Source: a virus. Taken from it: a stretch of 47,213 nucleotides of DNA. Shown here piece after piece: positions 254 to 47,213 of the stretch. Position 1 is the first letter of the stretch. Every line of letters begins with the position of its first letter. A model generated the notes under the pieces. It was given only the letters and a program-made list of their open reading frames with translations. It ran no database searches and was not told the origin of the DNA. The stretch covers positions 1 through 47,213 of the IMG/VR virus record IMGVR_UViG_3300046450_000575; one strand, written 5' to 3'. The position numbers and the translations under genes are program-made.

Positions 254-261
254 TATTTATT
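254..261 (-). promoter_or_regulatory. Late-type promoter motif AATAAATA before the IscA-like gene
   Basis: Minus-strand AATAAATA followed by ACTAT and then ATG. It differs by one base from the T4 late consensus TATAAATA and matches the context of other late motifs in this window. It overlaps the stop codon of the carbamoyltransferase C-terminal gene. Confidence 0.5.
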
Positions 262-868
262 CATCTTCGGGTCTGTTATCATTTTCTTTAATTTTTATTA
301 ACTCATACGGAATATTAATATCTTGGTCTTCGGGAATATACAGATAATTAATTTCTGTACGGTTACAAGTGTCAATTGCATCGTAGATAGTTTCCACCAG
401 TGCTTCACCACCTAGGTTAAAGGAAGTGTTGAACACTATCGGTACACCATTCTTTTCGTACATGGTTTTAATTAAATTATAATAGTTTTTATTTTGCTCG
501 ACTGTGACGGTTTGGATTCTACAGGTTCCGTCTGCATGAACAATACTAGGAATCTTCTCGTAGGCAATCTCTCGTGCTTGAATAGCAAACGACATCCAAG
601 GGGAGTCGGGTAATTGTTTCATATCAAAATATTCATTAGCGTGTTCTGCCATGACACTACCTGCGAAGGGACGATAAATTTCCCTCTTCTTAATATCATT
701 AACAATTTGTTTTGCTTCATGGTTGGTCGGGTCGAATAAAATACTTCGGTTACCCAATGCACGTGGGCCCCATTCACCTTTACCTTGGAACATTCCAACG
801 ATCTGTTTCTCGTCAATAATTAAATCAACAATCTCACTCACGTCTCTTATTATTTTTGTCTTATGCAT
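257..868 (-). CDS. O-carbamoyltransferase, C-terminal domain as a separate gene
   Basis: This 203-residue protein (MHKTKIIRDVSEIVD...) matches the C-terminal domain of NodU/CmcH/TobZ carbamoyltransferases (Carbam_trans_C). The diagnostic GEWGPRALGNRSIL stretch, then RPFAGSV and VPIVFNTSFNLGGEA, are all present. In the family this domain works with the Kae1-like N-terminal domain to move a carbamoyl group from carbamoyl phosphate to a sugar hydroxyl via carbamoyl-adenylate. Here it follows the N-terminal-domain gene with a TAATG overlap of one base, so the halves are probably translated in a coupled way. A longer frame to 940 exists, but the start at 868 fits the junction. No residues that I can judge as essential are missing. 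Confidence 0.88.
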   Translation of the reverse strand: MHKTKIIRDVSEIVDLIIDEKQIVGMFQGKGEWGPRALGNRSILFDPTNHEAKQIVNDIKKREIYRPFAGSVMAEHANEYFDMKQLPDSPWMSFAIQAREIAYEKIPSIVHADGTCRIQTVTVEQNKNYYNLIKTMYEKNGVPIVFNTSFNLGGEALVETIYDAIDTCNRTEINYLYIPEDQDINIPYELIKIKENDNRPEDE

Positions 869-2052
869 TATACTGTCTCCCTTGTTGTCCATGTCGAATT
901 CTTCACATACGGTTTCTCTGTCTTGGGAAGATTGTCCCAAAACTGAACTGCAGCTCCTAGTGCAGTACCACCATCATGGGGGACTGGGTCGATAAAGAAA
1001 TTGACATCGGGGAATGCAGATAGATACTTGTAGTTGTTTGTACAGTTAAGACTGTACCCACCACTCAATATAATATTCTTACATTCGGGGTCTAAGTCTA
1101 ATGCCTTCTGAATTGTTTTACAGGATGCATTAAAAGAATCTATCTCTACTTGTTGTGCAGCTGTAAACTGTGTATGGACATTCTCCATAGGATTACCGTA
1201 GGATGCCATACCCATGACCTTGCCTGCAGCCCGTCCTAGATCGTCTGTACCTAATGCCTGAGACATATTACTAAAGTTCATACCACTAGATGGGAAAGAG
1301 GTAAACTCTATCTCAGCACCTGATTCTGTGTCCGTCATGAACTCTGATTCAAGACAGGTACAAGACTCCCACAACTCGTTAGGGAAATACTTTGCAGACA
1401 GATCATCCACTGCTCGTGCAGCTGACAACTTCTGATATTGTAGAGTGACTTCTTTATTATCCAATTTATAAATGGATTCTATTTCTTGGTGCAGGGGATG
1501 AGTGTCAAAGAATTTCTTTGCACCTCCACCGTCCCATACTATAATGTGTGCAGATTCATACGGACTAAAATACACGGCTGACCATGCATGATATAAATGA
1601 TGATCAACTCGGTAGTGAGACTCGGGTGAAGCTTTCTCATCGGGTGAGAATTGTTCTCCCATTATTGTATCAACAATCTTCTCGTCTGCATTATCCCACT
1701 GATCTTTAAAAGAAAACTCGGGATAAAGAATGTGAAGGTCGTCCATGCGTTCACGACTTAATTGTTTTAATCGGACATCCTTAAGAAAGGTTCGAGACCA
1801 TATCTTGTCAAGGCCTATATGACCATCGACTTCGAGGTCGGTGTGTCGTCTGTCGAAAGATGCAAAGACCACATGGTCTACATCTTTAAGTTCGGGGTAG
1901 TGTTCAAGTGTCTGCATACAGGCACTCTCGGGTTTGGGACTCCAGTACTTCTTGCGTCTGCATCTTTCTTCTTCGTACAGGTTTAGTACTATTCCATCTT
2001 CCAATTCGCACACGGTTGAGTCGTGTGAAATATTCACTCCAAGTATTCTCAT
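868..2052 (-). CDS. O-carbamoyltransferase (NodU family), N-terminal Kae1-like domain as a separate gene
   Basis: The 394-residue protein opens MRILGVNISHDSTVC, the ASKHA-type phosphate loop of NodU/TobZ enzymes. It keeps EEER near residue 27, the metal-site motif HHLYHAWSAVYFSP, VWDGGG, AGKVMGMASYG and LSGGYSLNC. It stops just after the DGGTALGAA segment, where normal proteins (about 570-600 residues) continue into the C-terminal domain. That domain is the next gene, so together the two restore full length (597 residues). Known members carbamoylate sugars on antibiotics and Nod factors. In this phage the acceptor may be a sugar on DNA, since a glycosyltransferase cassette lies at the other end of the window; that link is inference. 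Confidence 0.9.
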   Translation of the reverse strand: MRILGVNISHDSTVCELEDGIVLNLYEEERCRRKKYWSPKPESACMQTLEHYPELKDVDHVVFASFDRRHTDLEVDGHIGLDKIWSRTFLKDVRLKQLSRERMDDLHILYPEFSFKDQWDNADEKIVDTIMGEQFSPDEKASPESHYRVDHHLYHAWSAVYFSPYESAHIIVWDGGGAKKFFDTHPLHQEIESIYKLDNKEVTLQYQKLSAARAVDDLSAKYFPNELWESCTCLESEFMTDTESGAEIEFTSFPSSGMNFSNMSQALGTDDLGRAAGKVMGMASYGNPMENVHTQFTAAQQVEIDSFNASCKTIQKALDLDPECKNIILSGGYSLNCTNNYKYLSAFPDVNFFIDPVPHDGGTALGAAVQFWDNLPKTEKPYVKNSTWTTRETV

Positions 2053-10044: not shown

Positions 10045-10052
10045 TATTTATT
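10045..10052 (-). promoter_or_regulatory. Late-type promoter AATAAATA before the porin gene
   Basis: Minus-strand AATAAATA followed by ACTATAGGAAGGATATATT and the ATG. It overlaps the TAA of the preceding oxygenase gene. Here a strong Shine-Dalgarno (AGGAAGG) lies between motif and start. Confidence 0.5.
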
Positions 10053-10695
10053 GTTGTTTAAAACGTATATTCCCAGCGACACTGATACGTTCACCCCCAC
10101 AATAGAAGGGGTACACTGAGTGTCTCAACCAACTAGGGAAGACCAATAGGTCACCCTGCAGTGGAAAATGACTGAATGTAGACACGTTCAAGAATTGAGT
10201 CTCTCCATAGTGCAGTTCAATGTGACCTGCCATGGGTGTAACTGGCATTGGGCCTGCAGCAGTAGGAGCCTCTTTATTCGTGTCGTATTTGTTGTCGATT
10301 GCATCTTCATATTTTACAGTGTTCTTAGTGTAAAAGACGAAAGAGAACAGACCATCATGTGAATGAATTGGATTGAACTCGGCATTGTTTGCTACGTTCA
10401 CCCATAGCCCATCGATTTCAAGATGTTCTTTGGGTATGCCTAGTTGACATTGATCTACCAGTACCATAACATGATTCATGATATGATCTTTTGTGTCATC
10501 GGTGACTATATCTTCAATAATTAACTGTTCTTCTACTCTTCCTGCAAGTAGTCCACCAACATTGTGATCTTTAGACCCTCTCCGTTGCTCTATACAGTCG
10601 GTTACATGACCTAGATGGTCAGGGTCGATTGCTCCAATATATAGAGGTGGCCCGAATGGACTGATCACTGGCTGATAGTAGTTGTCATCATTCAT
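10048..10695 (-). CDS. 2OG-Fe(II) oxygenase family protein (215 aa)
   Basis: It fits the phage/marine family TIGR02466 (2OG-FeII_Oxy_5). LWVNVANNAEFNPIHSHDG gives the proximal metal motif (H111 with H113 or D114), and GDLLVFPSWLRHSVYPFYCGGERISVAGN gives distal His192 and the 2OG-binding Arg203. Family members of this type are common in T4-like marine phages, but their substrate is not known. It lies in a run of oxygenase genes and precedes the porin gene. Cytoplasmic, no signal peptide. Confidence 0.82.
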   Translation of the reverse strand: MNDDNYYQPVISPFGPPLYIGAIDPDHLGHVTDCIEQRRGSKDHNVGGLLAGRVEEQLIIEDIVTDDTKDHIMNHVMVLVDQCQLGIPKEHLEIDGLWVNVANNAEFNPIHSHDGLFSFVFYTKNTVKYEDAIDNKYDTNKEAPTAAGPMPVTPMAGHIELHYGETQFLNVSTFSHFPLQGDLLVFPSWLRHSVYPFYCGGERISVAGNIRFKQQ

Positions 10696-11172: not shown

Positions 11173-11775
11173 TTATTTTATGACAACCTTAGCAAATGTA
11201 GGGCCGTCTGTTTGTTCTTCTGTTGGTTGATCATCATCACCGTGGTGATAATTATCACTGTTTTGGTTTTCATTAAACCAAACACCCAACATCCATTTTT
11301 CCCCTGCAGTAATAGGTAACACTCCCACGCTTCTCAGACTAGGATTGTTAACGATTAACATATCTCCAACTTTGTCGTTGATGATACTGCTGTCTACCAC
11401 TAGATTACCTCCATGGTAACCCTCTGATAGATTGAATAACACTAGACCAGTGTCTTCTTCTTGGGATGTGTTAAATTCATATGAATCCACTGGATAGCAT
11501 ATGATCTGTATATGACTAGGCTCTTCGAAACACTCACCATCGGGTAAAAAATCTTCTACCCAAGAATAAATCTTTTCGAAATCGGCATCGCCTACTTCAT
11601 CGGGGACAATGTTGTACACCTCAATCTCACTATGGTCTACCTTAAACCTAGAGGTTCCACCTTCAATTTCGTCTTCTTCTTCGGTGAATGCTTGTCTTAC
11701 TGCTAGTGCTATGACTGCATTACATTGCTCTTCGTCTAGTACTCTGTTACCGAGTGTTAATATATTATCTTGCAT
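11173..11775 (-). CDS. Degenerate 2OG-oxygenase-like protein (200 aa)
   Basis: The second half keeps the prolyl-hydroxylase-like scaffold: GLVLFNLSEGYHGGNLVVD, GDMLIVNN and ITAGEKWMLGVWF align with the usual LVYLN..F.GG, G..L.F and T.G.R..L..WF. The metal ligands are not there: the HxD position reads NTSQEED and the distal His is replaced in SLRSVGVLPIT. It is probably not an active oxygenase and may have become a binding or partner protein for the gene just upstream, which it overlaps by one base. Confidence 0.6.
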   Translation of the reverse strand: MQDNILTLGNRVLDEEQCNAVIALAVRQAFTEEEDEIEGGTSRFKVDHSEIEVYNIVPDEVGDADFEKIYSWVEDFLPDGECFEEPSHIQIICYPVDSYEFNTSQEEDTGLVLFNLSEGYHGGNLVVDSSIINDKVGDMLIVNNPSLRSVGVLPITAGEKWMLGVWFNENQNSDNYHHGDDDQPTEEQTDGPTFAKVVIK

Positions 11776-12470
11776 TAGTTATTTCCTGTTGATGGGTGGA
11801 AGAATTGTACTTGACTGATTCTCCAGTTATCTCCACTATATTTAGTGTAGTCTCCGATATAAGCTCCGTGCAATCTATTGCCTGGGAATACAACACATCG
11901 ATTGAATTTAGCAGGGATGATTGTATTTAAATCAAAGTCGTCTTGACATGGGTAGAGTAGTCCATGGTGTTCATCGTTAGATATCCACTCACCTTCGTAG
12001 ACTGCAGTTCCACCACTCTCCTGTTTATCCAAATAAACGAGCATGTTTAGTGTTGCAAGTTTGTCGGGAGTGTCAAATGACGAATCAGTGTGTGGGTAGT
12101 GTTGAAATGCAGGGTCGAATTGATTAATCGTTTGGAACACATTGAATTCGTGAATCATATCCCAATTGTATTTTCCCTTATGGAAATGTTTTCTGCATAT
12201 GTCCAATAGTCGTTCCATCTCACCAAAATATTTTCTAGTGGGGTGGCCGACCTTATCAACGATTCTGCAATCATTGTAGTCAATTCCGTTAGGGGATTCT
12301 CTCTCCGTAGAGTATTTCCACATTGGGAATTGACGAGCCATGAGGAAGTCGTGTATGTCTTCAGGATTCTCATAGAAGTTGTCTATGGTAATTGTCAACC
12401 CATCAAATGTGGGCTCCCACTTTTCAGACATCTTGAATAGTTCATCGTGAATGTATGTTTTACTTACCAT
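11775..12470 (-). CDS. 2OG-Fe(II) oxygenase-like protein, DUF6445 type (231 aa)
   Basis: HYPHTDSSFD gives H127 and D129; LATLNMLVYLDKQESGGTAVYEG follows as in DUF6445; NRCVVFPGNRLHGAYI gives H201, and NWRISQVQFF gives R217. The full catalytic set of the 2OG fold is thus present. The start at 12470 has AGAGGA 8 nt upstream and overlaps the previous gene by 11 bp. The substrate is unknown; the same family occurs in marine bacteria and phages. Confidence 0.78.
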   Translation of the reverse strand: MVSKTYIHDELFKMSEKWEPTFDGLTITIDNFYENPEDIHDFLMARQFPMWKYSTERESPNGIDYNDCRIVDKVGHPTRKYFGEMERLLDICRKHFHKGKYNWDMIHEFNVFQTINQFDPAFQHYPHTDSSFDTPDKLATLNMLVYLDKQESGGTAVYEGEWISNDEHHGLLYPCQDDFDLNTIIPAKFNRCVVFPGNRLHGAYIGDYTKYSGDNWRISQVQFFHPSTGNN

Positions 12471-13374
12471 GGTTTATGTCCTCTTGAAGGAAGTTATAAG
12501 ACATGTCTCGTCCTGTTGTATTATTGTCTAAGTCTGTCTTATGCCATAAATTAAACGATATACTGATACGTTCATATCCAGTCTCTATACCGTTTCTTAT
12601 AGAGGGTACTGCGTGTTGTAGGTAAGAGGGCCAGAGTAAGAAGTCACCTGTGTTCGGGTATACATTCATTTCTGACTCAGTTCCATTCGTACCATTAAAA
12701 TCTATATTGTTCATCCCATCTCTTTTTACAAGACGATCAACTTGTTGTTGACCTGACAATGCCATGATTGATGGTGATGTGAACTTAATCGGTTGTGACC
12801 CTTCGACTGCCTTGACGTAGTATGTTCCACTCATCTTACAATTGGTATGATTGTGTGTCTCATGATGGTGTTCACCAGTGTACACATTAACCCATGCAAA
12901 TAGATGTATGTCATTCCTTGATAGGTGACTCACTGGTATATTCAACATATTCTGTATGTACGAGATATAGGTGTCCTTACATATATCTGAAAAGTCCTTG
13001 AACCATTCTAGGTTGTGGGTCTCTGTACGTACATCCTCATCAAAATAAGTCGTGTAATTACGTCCTAGATCGTGTTCTGCACGTTCTTTAACCTTACTGA
13101 CTAGTCGTCTGCAATCCACCGCAATGTGGTCATGAGGTAAGTTGAAATGTCCCCTTAAAAAAGGAGTAGCAAATACTGGTATTATCTCACCATCAGCTGG
13201 ACGAAAATCTATCGAGGGTAATTGATTTTCCACACGTTTAGCAGCTTCAAGATCATCTGATTCATCAAACTCTGTAGGTGCAAGATATCCTTTTTCATCC
13301 GTATTTGTTTCATTAAATGTACTTTGTACATTATTAGAAACATTTTGGGGTGGCATTATACCCTTTGGTCTCAT
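12460..13374 (-). CDS. 2OG-Fe(II) oxygenase family protein, TIGR02466 type (304 aa)
   Basis: After a polar N-terminus of about 60 residues the protein shows IIPVFATPFLRG, LFAWVNVYTGEHHHETHNHTN (candidate ligands H174/H176), then GDFLLWPSYLQHAVPS (H254) and GYERISISFN (R269). These match the 2OG-FeII_Oxy_5 family, like the 215-aa protein encoded at 10048-10695; the two are distant paralogues. The gene overlaps the spanin-like lipoprotein gene by 4 bp upstream. Substrate unknown. Confidence 0.83.
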   Translation of the reverse strand: MRPKGIMPPQNVSNNVQSTFNETNTDEKGYLAPTEFDESDDLEAAKRVENQLPSIDFRPADGEIIPVFATPFLRGHFNLPHDHIAVDCRRLVSKVKERAEHDLGRNYTTYFDEDVRTETHNLEWFKDFSDICKDTYISYIQNMLNIPVSHLSRNDIHLFAWVNVYTGEHHHETHNHTNCKMSGTYYVKAVEGSQPIKFTSPSIMALSGQQQVDRLVKRDGMNNIDFNGTNGTESEMNVYPNTGDFLLWPSYLQHAVPSIRNGIETGYERISISFNLWHKTDLDNNTTGRDMSYNFLQEDINHGK

Positions 13375-14188: not shown

Positions 14189-14455
14189 CTATATCTCCTC
14201 TATTTTATAGTCTAGGCCTGATGATGATCTAATCTCAATCATCTTCTTGGTTTCCCAATCTCTAAACTTTAAATGTTTTTCTTTTTGTATAATAAGTTTA
14301 CGTGCAGTGTAAACGGACTTATACATTTGTCCACCCACAGTGCTTGATTCCCTATACACGGTTATTTGGTATTCTCCTACGAAGAGGTTGTGTATCCACC
14401 CTGCAAATCGTTTGCAGACACCCCATAAGCCTTTACCGAAATTCTTTCTACGCAT
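14189..14455 (-). CDS. Conserved marine phage protein (88 aa)
   Basis: MRRKNFGKGLWGVCKRFAGW, then FVGEYQITVYRESSTVGG and ARKLIIQKEKHLKFRD. The FVGEYQxTxxxESST word is one I associate with small proteins of marine T4-like phages. The ATG at 14455 has GGAG at an ideal 8-nt distance, better than the GTG at 14464, and overlaps the preceding oxygenase stop. Likely beta-rich and soluble. Function unknown. Confidence 0.6.
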   Translation of the reverse strand: MRRKNFGKGLWGVCKRFAGWIHNLFVGEYQITVYRESSTVGGQMYKSVYTARKLIIQKEKHLKFRDWETKKMIEIRSSSGLDYKIEEI

Positions 14456-15047
14456 TGTAGTCACTCCATCCTGTCAATATTATTTTCTCTCCACTCAATG
14501 GTGGATTTCCTCTGTGGACGTGTGTAAAGTGTGCAGGCCACACTAGTAACGTCCCTCTTGTTGGTTTAAATCTGCATCGTTGGTGAAGGAACTCTGTCTC
14601 CCCACCTTCTTCTACATCATTCATATACAACATCCATGCAAGAACACGATGTTTTGTTATATGTGAGTCTTGTTCATAATGCCATATATGATACCCCTCA
14701 CCCTGCAGTGTCTTTTGTATCTTTCCGTCCACTGATAACAATTCGATATCGTCACGCATACCATATGCTTGTTTATACATCGGTATAATTTCATCGTTTA
14801 GTTGTTGAAAGAATTCTGTTTGGTGTAATGCTCTAACAGTATCCTTTAGTTGATGACAAGTCTGAAATGTAAAGGATTCGTCTGATTTTTCTAGGATATC
14901 ATGAGATAGGTCGTAGTCCTCTCTTCGTGAGGTGTGACCAAGTGACGAGTAATATTCGAATGTATCCGTGATATTATTCATTAGTTCTTCATCTATTGCA
15001 TCGTGAAACACACCTATGTGATCACTCCGCTTTTCAAACTCTGCCAT
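14448..15047 (-). CDS. 2OG-Fe(II) oxygenase (prolyl-hydroxylase-like, 199 aa)
   Basis: A clear prolyl-4-hydroxylase-type fold: GYHIWHYEQD gives H123 and E125 (HxE instead of HxD), AWMLYMNDVEEGGETEF is the standard strand, and GTLLVWPAHFTHVHRGNPPLSGEKIILTGW gives the distal His (176 or 178) and the 2OG-binding basic residue K188. Start at 15047 (MAEFEKR) preferred to 15068. A late motif and a 5' leader hairpin precede it. Target unknown; close relatives are common in marine phages. Confidence 0.82.
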   Translation of the reverse strand: MAEFEKRSDHIGVFHDAIDEELMNNITDTFEYYSSLGHTSRREDYDLSHDILEKSDESFTFQTCHQLKDTVRALHQTEFFQQLNDEIIPMYKQAYGMRDDIELLSVDGKIQKTLQGEGYHIWHYEQDSHITKHRVLAWMLYMNDVEEGGETEFLHQRCRFKPTRGTLLVWPAHFTHVHRGNPPLSGEKIILTGWSDYNA

Positions 15048-15068
15048 AATTATACCTATATGCAACAA

Positions 15069-39504: not shown

Positions 39505-42018
39505 TTACCCGAAGAAACTGTCCAATGATGCAACTGGTTCAACATTCCAACCGATCAATTCAATTATTGCTTTAAGTGGTTCAATAAATGCCTTATCGAA
39601 TTGCATATCGTAATTGATGTAGTCCTGTAGTTCAAATTCTTTAGGTAGAACATTAGAGAAGGATATTACATTCTCGTTAAATTTGTTTGGGAGCTTAAGA
39701 TACACAAACAGAATCTTATCTCCACTCCGAATAAGGTTATATCTCTTGTCAATGTTCTTCTTTTCGAGGTAGTGGTTGTATAGTAATGCACCTCGTACAT
39801 GGATAGGTGTACCCTTACTATAGATCATTGACCTGTCTGAGTACTGTTGTAGGTTGTTGCAACCTCTAGGTGATGCAACCTTTTCAACTGGAAGGTCTCT
39901 AAAGTCTCTACGAGCATTCTCTACGAAATCCCATACATCTTGTTCTGTTCCATTCATGACCAACTTAAGTGCATCGGTCAACTTTTTACGAATCCACTGG
40001 GGTGTACTGGACTTTGCTGTCTCAATACCCATCATCTTCAGTTTAGGTTCGTGAAGTCTAACTCCTTCCATGTCATAAACATTAAGGATGTATCTTTTCT
40101 TTGCAGTCCATATTCCACGATCTGCAATAGCCTCTCTACCCATTTCCATCTTCTGTTGGAATGCGTTAGTGTAATCTGCAAGTTCATCATACCCCTTTGC
40201 AAGAACACCTTCAATCTTCTCGTTGGCAACGGTGTCAAGGAAGTCTACGATCTTATTCTTAGGTGTATCAGCAGGAAACACTTGTTGCACTAGTTTATCA
40301 AAAGTGATGTATACTGAGTCCGTGTCCATTGCGATAACATAATCTTGGTCTGTAGTCTTCAGTACCTTGTTCATCCAATCGTTGATAGTGATCTCTGCAG
40401 TCTTAATGACTAACTGACCCGACATGGTAATTGCTTCTGCAAGGTTTGGGTCGAAGAATGCAAAGTATTGATTTGCTAATGCACCATAAGCAGAGTTAAG
40501 TGCAATCTTTCTGACCTGTTGATTGTTGTATGCTCGTTTGATTAGACCATCAAGTTCATTCTTTCGTTTTGAATCAGTACAAACTTCCTGTTCCTTTTGA
40601 TAAGAAATCATCTTACCTTTCCACTCTTTACGTTCTTGGTAGAACTTCTCCATGAGCTCGGGTAGGAAACCCTGTTTGTCTCTTTTGAATTTTACACCAT
40701 TGGGTGCAACTGTTAAATTTAGTTTCTTTAGACTGGATAAGTCTGCCTTACCATCTAGAATCTTTTGGACATCAACATCCATAAGACCATTCTTCATCAT
40801 GGTCTCGGGTGATATGTTATACTGCATAATCAAATGGGGATAGAGTGAGTTCAAGTCAAACGACATAACCCAATCGTGTTTACCAACCAGTGGTTCCTTT
40901 ACATATGCACCAACGATTTGATGTGTCTTGCGTTGTCCTAGAGACTGTGGTGGGGTTTGAATTCCCTGTTCTTTGAGGAAGTTGTAGATAATAGTTTCCC
41001 AGTATTTTACCATTCCAAATGTATCATTGTAGTTACACTTAGCATTGTAAGACATGGTCATGGTCAATTCTAGTAGACCAAGTTTATCTTCTAGGTCTTC
41101 AACAAGAACAACATCCTGTACATTATATGCAAGGAACTTTGAATAGTCGTTTTTATACAATCCGTGTAATGAACCGTGTTCTGAGTAATCCAATTTCTTC
41201 TTACCCAACTCCATGTGGGCAATGTGATTCAGTGCATAGGATTCTTGGTTGACGAAAGTTCTCTTCTTATACAAGTCCATGTAGTCAACAACATTAACAC
41301 CGTACAGTGTAAACTTCTGTTGAGTGTTACCAAAGTTGGTTTTGTATTCTCTGACATCTACTTGATTCCATGGAGAGAACTTCTTGTGTTCTCCTTCACC
41401 GAATAACCTATCGACACGATTACACAGATATGTAATATCAAATGAATCTACATTCCAACCAGTAATAATATCGAAGGACTGCTTTCTCCAGTACTTGATA
41501 AATTCAGTTAACAGTTGTGCTTCGTCAACACATTCATGATAAGTTACATTGGCTGGTTTCTCATCCCAAGGGCCGATACCAAAGGTATGTGCCATGAAAC
41601 GAAATGGTTTGATTGTGATTGCATTGACCTTCTCCATTGCAAGAGTTGGTTCGGGAAACCCATTCTCTGATTCACACTCAATGTCGAGTGTTGCAATTTT
41701 AACTGTCTTAAAGTCCCACTTGATATCACCACGGAACTGGTCAGCAATGTAGGTGTAAATGTATCTGTCGTAGCCGTGGATTTCAAATCCAACAGTACCT
41801 TGATACGATTCACGAAACTTTCTTGCACCACCCATCGAACTGAGGTTTACTGCCTCAAGAGGTCTGCCGTCAAGTGAACGGAATGCAGTCTCACCCTTGG
41901 TGGATGGGACGTAGTGATTAGGACGGTAAGCAACAGTCTGTTTGACCTGCTTACCGTTCTGATAACCCTTTACAAGAATTTTGTCTCTTGTGCGACATAC
42001 ATTAGTATAGAAATCCAT
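39505..42018 (-). CDS. DNA polymerase, family B (T4 gp43 type)
   Basis: 837 residues, shorter than T4 gp43 (898) and like marine relatives. The 3'-5' exonuclease is complete: TLDIECESE (Exo I, D112/E114), GWNVDSFDITYL (Exo II), YNVQDVVLVEDL (Exo III). Polymerase motifs follow: SFDLNSLYPHLIMQ (A), RKIALNSAYGALANQYF (B), VIAMDTDSVYITFD (C, the DTDS catalytic Asp pair). It replicates the phage genome with helicase, primase and a clamp not seen in this window. The sigma70-like promoter at 42025-42053 precedes it. Confidence 0.97.
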   Translation of the reverse strand: MDFYTNVCRTRDKILVKGYQNGKQVKQTVAYRPNHYVPSTKGETAFRSLDGRPLEAVNLSSMGGARKFRESYQGTVGFEIHGYDRYIYTYIADQFRGDIKWDFKTVKIATLDIECESENGFPEPTLAMEKVNAITIKPFRFMAHTFGIGPWDEKPANVTYHECVDEAQLLTEFIKYWRKQSFDIITGWNVDSFDITYLCNRVDRLFGEGEHKKFSPWNQVDVREYKTNFGNTQQKFTLYGVNVVDYMDLYKKRTFVNQESYALNHIAHMELGKKKLDYSEHGSLHGLYKNDYSKFLAYNVQDVVLVEDLEDKLGLLELTMTMSYNAKCNYNDTFGMVKYWETIIYNFLKEQGIQTPPQSLGQRKTHQIVGAYVKEPLVGKHDWVMSFDLNSLYPHLIMQYNISPETMMKNGLMDVDVQKILDGKADLSSLKKLNLTVAPNGVKFKRDKQGFLPELMEKFYQERKEWKGKMISYQKEQEVCTDSKRKNELDGLIKRAYNNQQVRKIALNSAYGALANQYFAFFDPNLAEAITMSGQLVIKTAEITINDWMNKVLKTTDQDYVIAMDTDSVYITFDKLVQQVFPADTPKNKIVDFLDTVANEKIEGVLAKGYDELADYTNAFQQKMEMGREAIADRGIWTAKKRYILNVYDMEGVRLHEPKLKMMGIETAKSSTPQWIRKKLTDALKLVMNGTEQDVWDFVENARRDFRDLPVEKVASPRGCNNLQQYSDRSMIYSKGTPIHVRGALLYNHYLEKKNIDKRYNLIRSGDKILFVYLKLPNKFNENVISFSNVLPKEFELQDYINYDMQFDKAFIEPLKAIIELIGWNVEPVASLDSFFG

Positions 42019-43001: not shown

Positions 43002-43293
43002 TATCTTTCCTTATTTGTGCTTGCATGACTTCTACTAGAATGTCACCCATGAGTGTTTTTAGTTCAACATTATTTAGGTGTTTCTTAAGTTCCTCTTCGG
43101 TCTTTTCGACATTATGTGGTAATCTTCTTATAGTTCTTTCAAAATTTATGTTGGGTTTGCCATTTTCGAACCCGACCTTTCCGTATTGGTATACGAGTCC
43201 GTCCCATTCACCACCAGTAAGTTCAATCGCTGCGTCAGACTGGTGTAGGTTCTCTACAACCATGTAGACATTATCTTCAAATAGTGTTGTCAT
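42970..43293 (-). CDS. Conserved T4-like marine phage protein (107 aa)
   Basis: MTTLFEDNVYMVVENLHQSDAAIELTGGEWDGLVYQYGKVGFEN... The TTxFEDNVYxV...LxGGExDGVVYQYGKVxF pattern is one I know from T4-like marine phages. The C-terminus includes GDILVEVMQ. Likely a soluble beta-rich protein. The start at 43293 overlaps the spermidine-synthase-like gene by 17 bp; the longer frame to 43374 is inside it. Overlaps lysozyme by 32 bp. Confidence 0.7.
   Translation of the reverse strand: MTTLFEDNVYMVVENLHQSDAAIELTGGEWDGLVYQYGKVGFENGKPNINFERTIRRLPHNVEKTEEELKKHLNNVELKTLMGDILVEVMQAQIRKDNEQRSTKGTD
43071..43077 (-). promoter_or_regulatory. Possible internal late promoter CTAAATA before lysozyme
   Basis: Minus-strand CTAAATA inside the 107-aa gene, 70 bp before the lysozyme ATG. 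Same core as the other late motifs, but within coding sequence, so it could be chance. Confidence 0.4.
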
Positions 43294-43975
43294 TACAAAT
43301 TGTGATATGGTTTTTACCACCCTCCAAATTTTTATACTGTTCAACGACATTTGTGAAGGCATCTTTAAGCCCAATCATGTAGTCGTCATATGTTTGTGGT
43401 GCTACAAAATAATTAATTGCAACACGACCTTTAGGTGTTAGAATACTCTTCAACCCTTCATAGAATTTAGGTGAAATGAATTTGTTCTCTATCCGTGTAT
43501 CATCACAAACATCTACAATTATGATGTCATATATCCCTGTTAGCAATGTGTCTTGTACAAAATGGTATGCATCTTCGGTGATCACCTTGATTCGATTGTC
43601 TGAGGGCATTTTAAAATACTTTTCTGCAATGTCCTTTAAGTCGGGTATGATATCCACCACATCAATTTGACACTTAGTGTTTTGATGTAACCATGTTGGT
43701 ATGACTCCACCACCTAATCCAAGTACTAATGCTCGTGACGGTGATTCAACGTGGTTTACCACTTGTACTAAATGTCTTGCATAATCATATTGTAATCTTT
43801 CGGGGTAGTTCTTTAGGATTGATGCTTGAGTTATTGCACCTTCACCATAATGTAATGAAATCGATGTTGGGGTTTCTTTAACCTTAATCAGCATCCCATT
43901 TATAACAGTCCTGTATATCACGTTACCTGTGTGACCCATTAGAGGATTAACTATATTTGTATATCTCGGTTTCAT
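43277..43975 (-). CDS. Spermidine-synthase-like Rossmann methyltransferase-fold protein (232 aa)
   Basis: SRALVLGLGGGVIPTWLH is the nucleotide/AdoMet-binding loop, CQIDVVDIIPDLKDIAEKYF gives the acidic ribose site, RIKVITEDAYHFV and YDIIIVDVCDD follow as in SpeE and related proteins. The ATG at 43975 overlaps the previous stop (TAATG); the longer frame to 44068 is inside the glycosyltransferase gene. Whether it makes polyamine is unclear; it lies in the DNA-modification run, so it may alkylate a modified base or make polyamine that neutralises packaged DNA. Confidence 0.78.
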   Translation of the reverse strand: MKPRYTNIVNPLMGHTGNVIYRTVINGMLIKVKETPTSISLHYGEGAITQASILKNYPERLQYDYARHLVQVVNHVESPSRALVLGLGGGVIPTWLHQNTKCQIDVVDIIPDLKDIAEKYFKMPSDNRIKVITEDAYHFVQDTLLTGIYDIIIVDVCDDTRIENKFISPKFYEGLKSILTPKGRVAINYFVAPQTYDDYMIGLKDAFTNVVEQYKNLEGGKNHITICNDNTI

Positions 43976-44793
43976 TATGACATGAAATCCTTTATTGTTG
44001 CCACTTGAGAAGACAAATATGCTTTTTTCCATTGCACAGATGCTCCTAGTCTGTCTAGGTTCTTCCAAGGCCCTGACAATGTTTTTTTGGTTCTAAGTTT
44101 AACAAACTCAGGGAATAATTTTTGTAGGTCTTCACATGATTTATTATGGAATTCTACATCTCTATACTCAGAACAACCACCATCTTGATAACTCGGGCCG
44201 GGGTCAACAACATAATTATGCCATACTTTGTTTGCATGTCCTGTAGTTAACAATTGCAGATTTACATAGAAATCTTCTGCACCACAACATCCAACCCAGT
44301 CAATATCGTTCCATATTTTTGCAAGGTTTTTATTGTATACTTTGTTTCCCGACATTCTACTATTTTCAATGTATGGAAGTTTTCCCCAAGGGAAATTCCA
44401 AGTGGTTCCTAATGCACCATGCATCAAGCCAGAATCTAATTCTTTTTCAATATCTATTAACATTTGTTCAAAATGTTGCTCTGTAAACGTGTGTTTCTTG
44501 CCTGTTACTTGATACTCTGTTTCTTCATTATATACAAACCTTAAATCATCATCAAATAACCAAAAGTGATTATTACGATTAACTGCAAACTCTTTTGTTG
44601 TTTGTTCGATAGTTCTTGCATAACCAATGTTATCACCATCAAGAACAAATATATTTGGATGAACTTTTCGTGCTTCAGCTTCCTCTTGGGGTTGAACAAC
44701 TAAAGTTACGTTATCTCTAAACTTTTTTGGAATGTTTCCAAGAGTGGTCTGTTTATCCAATCTTTTATATGTACAAATAACTAAATCAATCAT
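43975..44793 (-). CDS. Glycosyltransferase, TET-associated (TAGT-like) GT-A type (272 aa)
   Basis: MIDLVICTYKRLDKQTTL, VTLVVQPQEEAEARK and NIGYARTIEQTTKEF are the N-terminal nucleotide-sugar fold of the TET-associated glycosyltransferase group. HFWLFDDDLRFV is the metal-binding DxD. Members are thought to add sugars to 5-hydroxymethylcytosine in phage DNA. Here the TET-type gene is two genes upstream and a sugar epimerase lies between. GAGGAG 5 nt before the ATG at 44793 decides the start over the GTG at 44799. Confidence 0.8.
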   Translation of the reverse strand: MIDLVICTYKRLDKQTTLGNIPKKFRDNVTLVVQPQEEAEARKVHPNIFVLDGDNIGYARTIEQTTKEFAVNRNNHFWLFDDDLRFVYNEETEYQVTGKKHTFTEQHFEQMLIDIEKELDSGLMHGALGTTWNFPWGKLPYIENSRMSGNKVYNKNLAKIWNDIDWVGCCGAEDFYVNLQLLTTGHANKVWHNYVVDPGPSYQDGGCSEYRDVEFHNKSCEDLQKLFPEFVKLRTKKTLSGPWKNLDRLGASVQWKKAYLSSQVATIKDFMS

Positions 44794-45490
44794 ACACACT
44801 CCTCATTGCTTTCCATCCTAACTTTTTCATTTCTGTTATATCTGCAATACTACGAAATATTTCAATATCATCCCCTTCTTTTTCGGGAACATCTACTCCG
44901 AAATGTTTTACTACATCTGAAACTAAATGTTCTTTACCAGTTCCAACTTCATAATATGGTAGTGCATCTCGTGTTCCTTGCATGATAAACAATAAGATAG
45001 CACCTATAATATCATCTATATGAATAAAGTCTCTTATATGGTTTGTATGGTACTTAATAGTTCCATTTTTGATTCTAGTTATTAATCCTATATCTGAGGC
45101 ACCATCACCATAGATGCTTTCAAATCTTAATCCAACATGACCTTTATGTGCAAGTGTTTCTAAAACTTTTTTAGTTGTTCCATATGGACTTCTCCAATAT
45201 TCTTTTGCAGCTGCACTAGAAGCATAAACCATTGGAACATCTTTACATGTATCAAATATTTTTTTACTGTATTCTACATTTTGCAACCAGTAATCGTGTG
45301 GTTCGTTAATAGAATCTCTTGGTGAGATTAGACCAGCAAGATGAATAACAAAATCTTCATCACCATCTAAATAAAAATCTTTTATGTCTTTACCTATTTT
45401 AGTATCCCATTCTACAATATTATGTTTATCTAAAGCACTTCGTAGATATTTTCCTATAAAACCTCTTGAACCTGTAATAACTATTTTCAT
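44786..45490 (-). CDS. NAD-dependent epimerase/dehydratase (extended SDR, 234 aa)
   Basis: MKIVITGSRGFIGKYLRSAL carries the GxxGxxG NAD motif, and DFVIHLAGL the usual strand. PMVYASSAAAKEYWRSPYGTTK provides the Ser-Tyr-x3-Lys catalytic set (YGTTK). HIRDFIHIDDIIGA is the C-terminal motif seen in UDP-sugar epimerases and dehydratases. It is likely to make the activated sugar used by the next gene's glycosyltransferase. ATGA overlap with the TET gene and 8-bp overlap with the transferase. Confidence 0.87.
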   Translation of the reverse strand: MKIVITGSRGFIGKYLRSALDKHNIVEWDTKIGKDIKDFYLDGDEDFVIHLAGLISPRDSINEPHDYWLQNVEYSKKIFDTCKDVPMVYASSAAAKEYWRSPYGTTKKVLETLAHKGHVGLRFESIYGDGASDIGLITRIKNGTIKYHTNHIRDFIHIDDIIGAILLFIMQGTRDALPYYEVGTGKEHLVSDVVKHFGVDVPEKEGDDIEIFRSIADITEMKKLGWKAMRSVYD

Positions 45491-46488
45491 AAAAAATCTC
45501 CTAGTGTACCCTTCTCTTCATAGTTTCCTGCATGGGGGCCGATAGGTTTCTCAGTTTTACCTGCTTCACCCATAGTTGCAACATGTTCGTCACAGTACGC
45601 AACACATGATAGTCGCACTCCTTCACCAGTGATAGGTGTTACACCATGCAATTCATTTGAATCTGCAATCAGTACGTCTCCATCATCTGCTTCAATAGCA
45701 ATACCATATCTAGGGAAACATAAGTATGCACCATCGAATTCTCCGATACGGAATACACACATTGTAGTCATACCGAATTCTAAATCTTTACCATCCAAGT
45801 GAGCAGACATCTTTGTTGTCCCACCTGTGGAGTACTTGTTTGCAGATAAGGCTGTCATCGGTGAACCACCAATGTGATACTTCTTGTCTATACAATTGTC
45901 TGCAAAGGTTTTTTGTAAGTTGTATACTTCGGGAACTGCATTTTTCAATGCTTCCTCATTGACATTTGCAATCTGTGATAATGCTTCTAATTTTTTTGCA
46001 TTAGATTTCTTTTGCATCCATCCACTAGCTTTGATCATACCAGTGAACCTTCCTCTTTTATAACCGATCAATACAGAATGAATCTCATTTGCTTCTGCAA
46101 TACGATTGAACTCACCGTTCTTCTTTAGAGGGTAATAACTGTTAGGTGTTCTAAGGACATAATCTTTACCTTCGATTAATCCTTTTGCTTTCATGGCATC
46201 GTGATCAATGGGGCCTGCAGCGTTTGCTCTCATTGTAGATGTGTCATCTATTGAGAACAGAGTGTCTTTAACTGTTTGATATACTTTACCCTTGTATGCT
46301 TTCTTTACGATACATGCAAGTAATGTTTTACCCATGAGTGTACCATGAGGTTTATAGATTTTGATAACATCACCATCGTATTCAATAGATGATATAACAG
46401 TATCGTAAGAATCTTCTGTAAGATACTTACCATTCCATTTTTTGAATGTGTCTTTAAATCCTAAGTCTGTTGTTGTTGTATATTCCAT
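45487..46488 (-). CDS. TET/JBP-type 5-methylcytosine dioxygenase (333 aa)
   Basis: The catalytic C-terminal half (about 205-300) fits the TET/JBP family of 2OG-Fe(II) enzymes: MSAHLDGKDLEFGMTT has H230 and D232, YLCFPRYGIAIEADDGDVLIADSNELHGVTP has H281, and GVRLSCVAYC has the 2OG-binding R292. The N-terminal 200 residues are of unknown fold and probably bind DNA. It oxidises 5mC to 5hmC (and perhaps further) on phage DNA after the methyltransferase acts. The ATG at 46488 (MEYTTTTD) overlaps the methyltransferase gene by 28 bp; the frame to 46536 is too long. Confidence 0.87.
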   Translation of the reverse strand: MEYTTTTDLGFKDTFKKWNGKYLTEDSYDTVISSIEYDGDVIKIYKPHGTLMGKTLLACIVKKAYKGKVYQTVKDTLFSIDDTSTMRANAAGPIDHDAMKAKGLIEGKDYVLRTPNSYYPLKKNGEFNRIAEANEIHSVLIGYKRGRFTGMIKASGWMQKKSNAKKLEALSQIANVNEEALKNAVPEVYNLQKTFADNCIDKKYHIGGSPMTALSANKYSTGGTTKMSAHLDGKDLEFGMTTMCVFRIGEFDGAYLCFPRYGIAIEADDGDVLIADSNELHGVTPITGEGVRLSCVAYCDEHVATMGEAGKTEKPIGPHAGNYEEKGTLGDFL

Positions 46489-47213
46489 GGTTCCAATATC
46501 TGTTGTTTGACTTCCTCGACTAGACGATACATACAAAGTGGTGCAACCATCAATCCGATTCTTGCTCCCTTGTCGTCATAGTCTCCAGTCATTTTATAGT
46601 CATTAGGTAAAGTCATTAACCTTACCATCTCTTTAGGTGTGTAGATTCGTTTTCCATTGTGATGAAAATGATTACCACCCATAAATTTTGGTTGACAACC
46701 CGATTCAGTTAATGAATGGGCTGCAAGATGTTTAGGTACGATTCTTGACATGTAGTAAGAATGTTTTACATCTTCTTCTGCAATATTACCAAGTTTTGCA
46801 TTCTCTTCAAACCAAGGGCCAACGATATGATCACCTATAGAAACATAGGAAAGATTTTCTTTATCCTCTATTCCTGCAATTCCTTTACAAGGAGTGCAAT
46901 GTGCAAGTTCTTCTTTTGGGTGTACATCGAATCCATTTACCCAATGACCTTTTGATGATTCATTCATTGCATTTTCTAGATAAGCTGCATCTATAATATT
47001 TTGTTCATCTGTTTCTAAATCATGGATTGCATCTTCAATGGATGCAAATTCTTTTACTGGGTCGGGGAAGACGGAAGACATACACATCCAAGGCATACCG
47101 ATACCTTCTAGTACATCATCACGTACACCAACCATGAATACTCTTTCTCTCTTCTGAGGTACACCGTGCTGATGACCCTTCATGACTTTCCAAGTAACTG
47201 AGTATCCAAGTTT
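46461..47213 (-). CDS. C5-cytosine DNA methyltransferase, C-terminal part (cut by window edge)
   Basis: The frame is open to the window edge. YSVTWKVMKGHQHGVPQKRERVFMVGVRDD is the conserved motif VIII (GVPQxRxR), and EMVRLMTLPNDY with GLMVAPLCMYRLVEEV are motifs IX and X of the C5 methyltransferase family. Motifs I-VI with the PCxxxS catalytic Cys lie beyond the edge. The target recognition region is between (residues 40-180). Encoded upstream of TET, it would make the 5mC that TET oxidises. Confidence 0.9.
   Translation of the reverse strand, partial: KLGYSVTWKVMKGHQHGVPQKRERVFMVGVRDDVLEGIGMPWMCMSSVFPDPVKEFASIEDAIHDLETDEQNIIDAAYLENAMNESSKGHWVNGFDVHPKEELAHCTPCKGIAGIEDKENLSYVSIGDHIVGPWFEENAKLGNIAEEDVKHSYYMSRIVPKHLAAHSLTESGCQPKFMGGNHFHHNGKRIYTPKEMVRLMTLPNDYKMTGDYDDKGARIGLMVAPLCMYRLVEEVKQQILEPWNIQQQQT

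Follow-up and report, generated by a model that had tools for sequence, protein, structure and literature searches.

A methyltransferase, TET and glycosyltransferase cassette of a T4-type phage and the polymerase-like peptide at the C-termini of two of its enzymes

The window analyzed here, the whole 47,213-nucleotide stretch of IMG/VR record IMGVR_UViG_3300046450_000575, is a 47.2-kb fragment of a T4-type phage with polymerase, UvsX and helicase genes at 36-42 kb. On the minus strand at its right end lie five genes, overlapping or abutting, for a C5-cytosine methyltransferase (MT, cut by the contig end), a TET/JBP-type dioxygenase (TET), a nucleotide-sugar epimerase (EPI), a TAGT-family glycosyltransferase (GT) and a SpeE-fold S-adenosylmethionine (AdoMet) enzyme (SPE), in that order. 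This gene set very probably methylates, oxidizes and sugar-caps the cytosines of the phage. Furthermore, TET and GT end in a peptide like the one at the C-terminus of the phage DNA polymerase (POL), which suggests that the phage DNA is disguised while it is being copied. As the best explanation of the whole we propose a cassette with clamp docking, a swappable decoration module and SPE as an accessory, and we consider this explanation probable.

From gene content, protein families, motifs, synteny and the conservation of the tail with its controls, we infer the following order of events. After replication, MT would place 5-methylcytosine (5mC) in the newly made phage DNA, TET would oxidize it to 5-hydroxymethylcytosine (5hmC) while bound to the sliding clamp (gp45), and GT, held on the clamp too, would cap 5hmC with a sugar from a nucleotide sugar that EPI may make or alter. 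Oxidation and capping would follow the replication fork through the docking of TET and GT on gp45, and the sugar cap may hide the phage DNA from host nucleases. Decoration at this locus would have two interchangeable modes, the GT module and a P-loop kinase. The original prediction had proposed this series from 5mC through 5hmC to glycosyl-5hmC, with a linked epimerase and an additional step by SPE. The action of MT, TET and TAGT in series is well supported because families, motifs, TET fold and synteny agree, and the linkage of EPI likewise held, whereas the SPE step was not supported. A dCMP hydroxymethylase of the thymidylate synthase type (PF00303) was present in none of 16 records, which is consistent with a post-replicative route, and on this ground we rejected 5hmC formation at the nucleotide level through such an enzyme.

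The five named genes lie on one strand as predicted, and each scores above the curated Pfam cut-off of its family. The same phage was found in a 69.8-kb contig (locus L004, record G001), where MT is complete (L004:3319-4608, 429 amino acids) with motifs I (FAGGGG), IV (PPCPPF), VI (ENVKG) and VIII (GVPQKRER), while the window holds the C-terminal part. The call of a C5-methyltransferase was borne out by PF00145, with the correction that GVPQKRER is motif VIII. TET scores 51 bits against PF12851 (cut-off 34.9), which places the oxygenase inside the TET/JBP family. The predicted residues H230, D232, H281 and R292 are correct when numbered from the internal ATG; in the longer TTG open reading frame (ORF), the iron triad and the arginine that binds 2-oxoglutarate (2OG) are H246, D248, H297 and R308, invariant in 23 relatives. 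The 26 best PDB matches of the AlphaFold2 model were all of TET/JBP type (CcTet, CMD1, TET2, NgTET1; TM-scores by query 0.45-0.58), and PDB sequence searches with the TET profile and with GT gave nothing useful.

In EPI, the GxxGxxG motif reads GSRGFIG and the predicted YxxxK motif of short-chain dehydrogenase/reductase (SDR) epimerases is present as YGTTK (residues 103-107), with PF01370 above its cut-off; heptose epimerase and GalE models matched weakly, below their cut-offs. GT falls within the TAGT group (PF20691, 43.6 bits, cut-off 27.5), matches PHROG_842 (beta-glucosyl-HMC-alpha-glucosyltransferase) at 8.9e-34 and has the expected DDD motif at residues 83-85, within an acidic DxD-type metal site (LFDDDL, residues 81-86). 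It is linked to TET and the C5-methyltransferase in the window and in other loci. The two family placements that the original prediction had named as refuting, a GT outside TAGT and an oxygenase outside TET/JBP, thus did not occur. The PF20691 enzyme of T2 and T6 adds the second glucose (PMC13216743), and membership in TAGT by itself leaves first versus second sugar undecided. Compared with locus L071, the window is 90% identical in EPI and 78% in GT and only 68% in MT and TET, on a different backbone, and the EPI-GT pair recurs in L220 beside a polymerase of the type found in phage Melnitz. The higher identity and the recurrence indicate that the module moves as a unit. Since EPI and GT travel together, the suggestion that the epimerase supplies a dedicated sugar is plausible.

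The case for docking comes from the extreme C-termini. Exactly three of the 80 ORFs in the window carry the strict tail motif, namely POL (ASLDSFFG), TET (GTLGDFL) and GT (ATIKDFMS), and the carriers in record G002 are again POL, TET and GT. In Melnitz, the carriers are POL, TET and a third protein, the base modifier Mom (PF25680, 7.4e-49). Melnitz is an isolated OM43 phage in culture with a locus of the kinase type and Mom, and the passages found in its paper discuss the methylase only (PMC9004378). Its Mom homolog (L131:19571-20380, QZI95078, misannotated as DUF465) ends in TATLEGFF and has marine relatives in L137-L216. Across loci, the tails read GSLDSFF or GTLGDFL in TET, STITDFMV or ATIKDFMS in GT, and LEEFF in the unnamed proteins c45 and c57. 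Of 29 distinct TET tails, 28 have the motif and the one without it belongs to a truncated ORF; the strict form is present in 27 of 29 for TET, 6 of 6 for POL and 7 of 11 for GT. None of 580 distinct tails in the set of loci outside POL, TET, GT, c45, c57 and c81 has the strict motif; at the level of whole genomes, a baseplate-like protein of G009 is one further match.

The T4 polymerase gp43 ends in ASLDFLFG and gp55 ends in SLDFLYEAND. The C-terminal motifs of gp43, gp55 and gp33 are similar and interchangeable (PMC2988020), and the C-termini of gp43 and gp55 are sliding-clamp-binding motifs (PMC2988020, PMC7892883). Binding to gp45 is known for T4 alpha-glucosyltransferase as well, a finding of Sommer 2004 that PMC13216743 cites and confirms. 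By analogy, the polymerase of the window probably grips the replication ring by its C-terminal peptide, and since TET and GT carry a copy of that peptide at their own ends, we propose a putative docking of both on the gp45 clamp. MT, EPI, SPE, the cytidylyltransferase, c60 and the P-loop kinase have no tail, so that among the glycosylation-type genes the tail marks the enzymes expected to touch DNA. More broadly, we lean toward the hypothesis that marine T4-like phages have fixed the clamp peptide of the polymerase onto unrelated base modifiers (TET, TAGT, Mom and probably others), which would couple the disguise to the replisome. We found no paper joining phage, TET and sliding clamp in a literature of partial coverage, and the newness of the tail is therefore a judgement rather than a proof. 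Two unnamed proteins located between MT and TET in L081, c57 (L081:4900-5787, LEEFFS) and c81 (L081:2712-3461, TLEAFI), also have clamp-type tails and are candidate DNA-modifying enzymes.

The presence of the tail was compared with that of the clamp. The TETs of DLP_6 (ATLGDFFV) and C48C1 (ISLEEFFV), which show about 30-36% identity along part of the protein, carry it, whereas those of HTVC112P, P12024L and S-CBWM1 do not, and no gp45 (PF09116) was found in these three phages. PF09116, the C-terminal domain of gp45, is present in all checked genomes with a tail-bearing TET bar the window fragment, and G001 of the same phage has it. Likewise, 77 of 78 marine relatives of Mom carry the tail, whereas the Mom proteins of Mu, Y8A, ET-ABTNL-9 and P12002L do not. 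A tail common to TAGTs in general was rejected, since it is missing in PS2, AB1I1M-1, LuckyBarnes and ctUhy936.

Several points weigh against our interpretation. The motif was defined after the tails had been viewed, so that the later control tests weigh more, and tails inside one family are not independent. Four of the 11 distinct GT tails lack the motif, two of the tailless TAGTs (PS2 and AB1I1M-1) belong to T4-like phages, and neither gp33 nor gp55 of Melnitz has the tail. Cr30 has gp45, yet its TET ends in a degenerate TGATLF. The share of alpha-glucosylation in T4 is set mostly by promoter strength and translation, not by clamp binding (PMC13216743), and docking may therefore matter little. 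Finally, the reactions ascribed to the enzymes of these phages are predictions from their genes.

A scan with the window TET returned 80 loci, and a clustered TET ORF is present in 83 loci of the set. Where a locus is long enough to show it, TET nearly always has MT as its neighbor; L046 is an exception. Downstream of MT-TET, in two related backbones, lies either a P-loop kinase (PF18751), often with the unnamed protein c9, or a glycosyltransferase set whose members are TAGT, a T4-type alpha-glucosyltransferase (in L057, PF11440 5.7e-74, and in L055), the GT8-like c56 or the unnamed c45. In a dereplicated set of 35 loci in which two or more genes follow TET, the kinase alone occurs in 23, a named glycosyltransferase alone in eight and the two together in none (Fisher p 2e-5); counting c45 and c57 as decorators gives 23, 11 and 0 (p 3e-8), p-values that ignore shared ancestry. 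A single locus, L079, has the kinase and c45 together. Beside MT-TET, the kinase and the glycosyltransferase thus hardly ever occur together, and their alternation next to one core would offer a natural series of 5hmC decorations.

The commonest partner of MT-TET is the P-loop kinase (for example L013:2838-3374), often together with c9 (L027:7372-8508), a protein of roughly 330-420 amino acids in which a ParB-like GFNR motif was recognized by eye alone and whose one PDB match, at an E-value of 0.31, is a nucleoid occlusion protein of the ParB family. The kinase/c9 type possibly phosphorylates 5hmC and then transfers some group. Searches of Pfam and PHROGs gave nothing or chance-level matches for c9, c45 and c57, and PDB profiles yielded no name for c9 or c45. 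Another module, in L006 and L007 (c60-c42-c45) and in L079, takes the place of GT or immediately precedes TET. It combines a kinase-like protein with a cytidylyltransferase and with an unnamed protein of 424 amino acids that ends in a clamp-type tail, and perhaps represents a CDP-activated decoration.

The SPE gene was the least expected of the set in the original prediction, which had it add or charge a further group; it is also the step of the pathway with the weakest support. Its most likely start overlaps the GT stop codon and gives 232 amino acids, not 263. The best PDB sequence match is METTL13 (1e-12), and the AlphaFold2 model (pLDDT 74) has the whole spermidine synthase fold including the N-terminal beta-domain (TM-scores by query 0.63-0.75); the best NCBIfam equivalog, NF003380, scores 93.5 bits, below the cut-off of 304. 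The DxxD pair is retained, and GGGDGG is replaced by GLGGG (Asp to Gly in an ungapped alignment with METTL13), by GLGAG in the pelagiphage relatives, and by either form in most bacterial relatives with a readable motif. The lost Asp binds the amine of decarboxylated AdoMet, and the D103I exchange in a plant spermidine synthase abolished aminopropyl transfer while a weak methyl transfer was gained (PMC3725402). SpeD was found in none of the 16 records. The missing Asp, the match to METTL13 and the lack of SpeD together favor methyl transfer from AdoMet, to which we give an even chance and which is likelier than aminopropyl transfer.

SPE is restricted to this phage lineage (L002-L007, L010) and to HTVC008M-like pelagiphages, at about 30% identity and with no TET beside it. 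Within the lineage, SPE is kept while the GT module changes, L005 having a GT of 40% identity and L006/L007 having c60, the cytidylyltransferase and c45. The cassettes with MT, TET, EPI and GT in L071/L072 (none in the 129.6-kb contig) and L220 (absent from the ORFs that surround the cassette) lack SPE, which makes it an accessory rather than part of the pathway core. An essential last step, in which SPE would attach a charged group, aminopropyl or another, to the modified base, would fit the SpeE fold with its beta-domain, the DxxD pair, the overlap with the GT stop and the fact that all three GT-type modules of the lineage (L002-L004, L005, L006/L007) adjoin SPE. We nevertheless regard this step as unlikely, and rejected a polyamine role, because of the EPI-GT backbones without SPE, the Gly or Ala in place of the Asp, the lack of SpeD in the 16 records, the location of the pelagiphage relatives away from TET and the missing clamp tail. 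As a lineage-specific accessory, SPE is most likely a methyltransferase whose substrate may be the sugar, a precursor or an unrelated molecule. The gene after GT in L220 (L220:4867-5484), where the window has SPE, resembles a 2OG-type oxygenase by eye.

We also considered the possibility that the C-terminal peptide is a by-product of an overlapping ribosome-binding site or start codon, or a piece of the TET fold. In the window, the TET tail codons CTA GGA GAT do include AGGAG, a Shine-Dalgarno-like sequence 5' of the epimerase ATG, and overlap with the following start codon is frequent in the c45 and c57 tails. However, a loose search found no such site in 33 of 44 distinct TET tails, 21 of the 44 TET genes end more than 20 nucleotides from the next gene, and the Leu, Ser, Asp and Phe codons vary while the amino acids stay, which led us to reject a Shine-Dalgarno artefact. 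The GT tail is also present in L050 and L071, where GT and the gene after it do not overlap, the same tail occurs on unrelated folds (polymerase, GT, Mom), and the last 30 residues of the TET model (pLDDT 51-57) lie outside the core, all of which makes a by-product quite improbable. Thymine is the substrate of JBP-type members of PF12851, so the oxygenase and GT could in principle act on thymine-derived bases or RNA rather than on DNA cytosine. This is very unlikely given that, on contigs of sufficient reach, a C5-cytosine methyltransferase lies beside nearly every TET and that TAGT and T4 alpha-glucosyltransferase relatives act on 5hmC in the T-even phages. It is equally hard to believe that a split carbamoyltransferase at the other end of the window leaves a carbamate or other group as the last modification, even though both of its domains match their families well (Table 1), enzymes of this type are able to carbamoylate 5hmC and an eLife 2021 study ties the carbamoyltransferase family to cytosine modification (PMC8670742). 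The gene is about 42 kb away, only one other TET record among those searched (G009) has it, it also occurs in Mosig and HTVC008M, and in unmodified contigs carbamoyltransferases adjoin genes of other functions. The stop of its N-domain gene overlaps the likely ATG of the C-domain gene (TAATG), and since G009 also has a 220-amino-acid C-domain ORF, the split is probably natural. We favor sugar-capped cytosine as the product of the cassette.

Table 1. Coordinates of the cassette, the clamp-type tails and two further features in the window.
Feature	Position	Strand	Support
C5-cytosine methyltransferase (MT), C-terminal 250 amino acids, cut by contig end	46461..47213	-	PF00145 1.2e-17
TET/JBP 2OG-Fe(II) dioxygenase (TET) from ATG at 46488 (ORF from TTG at 46536)	45487..46488	-	PF12851 1.2e-13
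TET C-terminal clamp-type tail GTLGDFL + stop	45487..45510	-	conserved tail motif
Short SDR nucleotide-sugar epimerase/dehydratase (EPI), 234 amino acids	44786..45490	-	PF01370 2.4e-16; PHROG_540 1e-34
TAGT-family glycosyltransferase (GT), 274 amino acids	43975..44799	-	PF20691 4.3e-11; PHROG_842
GT C-terminal clamp-type tail ATIKDFMS + stop	43975..44001	-	conserved tail motif
SpeE-fold class I AdoMet enzyme (SPE), 232 amino acids from ATG at 43973-43975	43277..43975	-	PF01564 1.1e-9
T4-type DNA polymerase (gp43), C-terminus ASLDSFFG, reference tail	39505..42018	-	PHROG_262 1034 bits
Split carbamoyltransferase, N-domain gene (868-2052) and C-domain gene	257-2052	-	PF02543 1.6e-15; PF16861 3.1e-57

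Elsewhere in the window there are four more proteins of the 2OG-Fe(II) oxygenase type (10048-10695, 11775-12470, 12460-13374 and 14448-15068), and an ORF on the minus strand at the left contig end (1-250) resembles an IscA/HesB-type iron-sulphur carrier by eye.

If our hypothesis is true, docking the modifiers on the replisome solves the timing problem of a post-replicative base disguise, and the tail becomes a sequence mark by which T4-like phages can be searched for base modifiers not yet recognized. The annotation of another TET/TAGT cluster is thereby turned into a testable mechanism.

Phage TET/TAGT clusters for cytosine hypermodification were reportedly described by Burke and colleagues in 2021. 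The cassette shares with such clusters the adjacent C5-methyltransferase, TET and TAGT and the expected post-replicative path from 5mC through 5hmC to glycosyl-5hmC, and differs in its T4-type marine backbone, the linked epimerase, the clamp-type tails on TET and GT, the kinase-type alternative at the locus and the SpeE-fold accessory. With the glucosyl-5hmC system of the T-even phages (dCMP hydroxymethylase, alpha- and beta-glucosyltransferases and TAGT) it has the TAGT family in common, and alpha-glucosyltransferases occur in the related loci L057 and L055. However, 5hmC would here be made in the DNA by MT and TET, whereas the T-even phages make it as a nucleotide, and T4 alpha-glucosyltransferase ends in FKEQFDIITK, without a clamp-type tail. 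Like the clamp-binding C-termini of T4 gp43 and gp55, the POL and TET tails are extreme C-terminal and hydrophobic-acidic, but such a tail is here carried by base-modifying enzymes too, and its binding is putative. Mom is also a base modifier, and in marine T4-like phages it carries the same tail, but it has another fold, its substrate is adenine and it is not encoded in the window. SPE shares the fold and the DxxD pair with the group of spermidine synthase, METTL13 and putrescine N-methyltransferase (PF01564) and differs from spermidine synthase in the missing Asp of GGGDGG. The cassette is thus an addition to the known phage TET/TAGT clusters, set apart from them by the clamp-type tail and by the alternation of kinase and glycosyltransferase.

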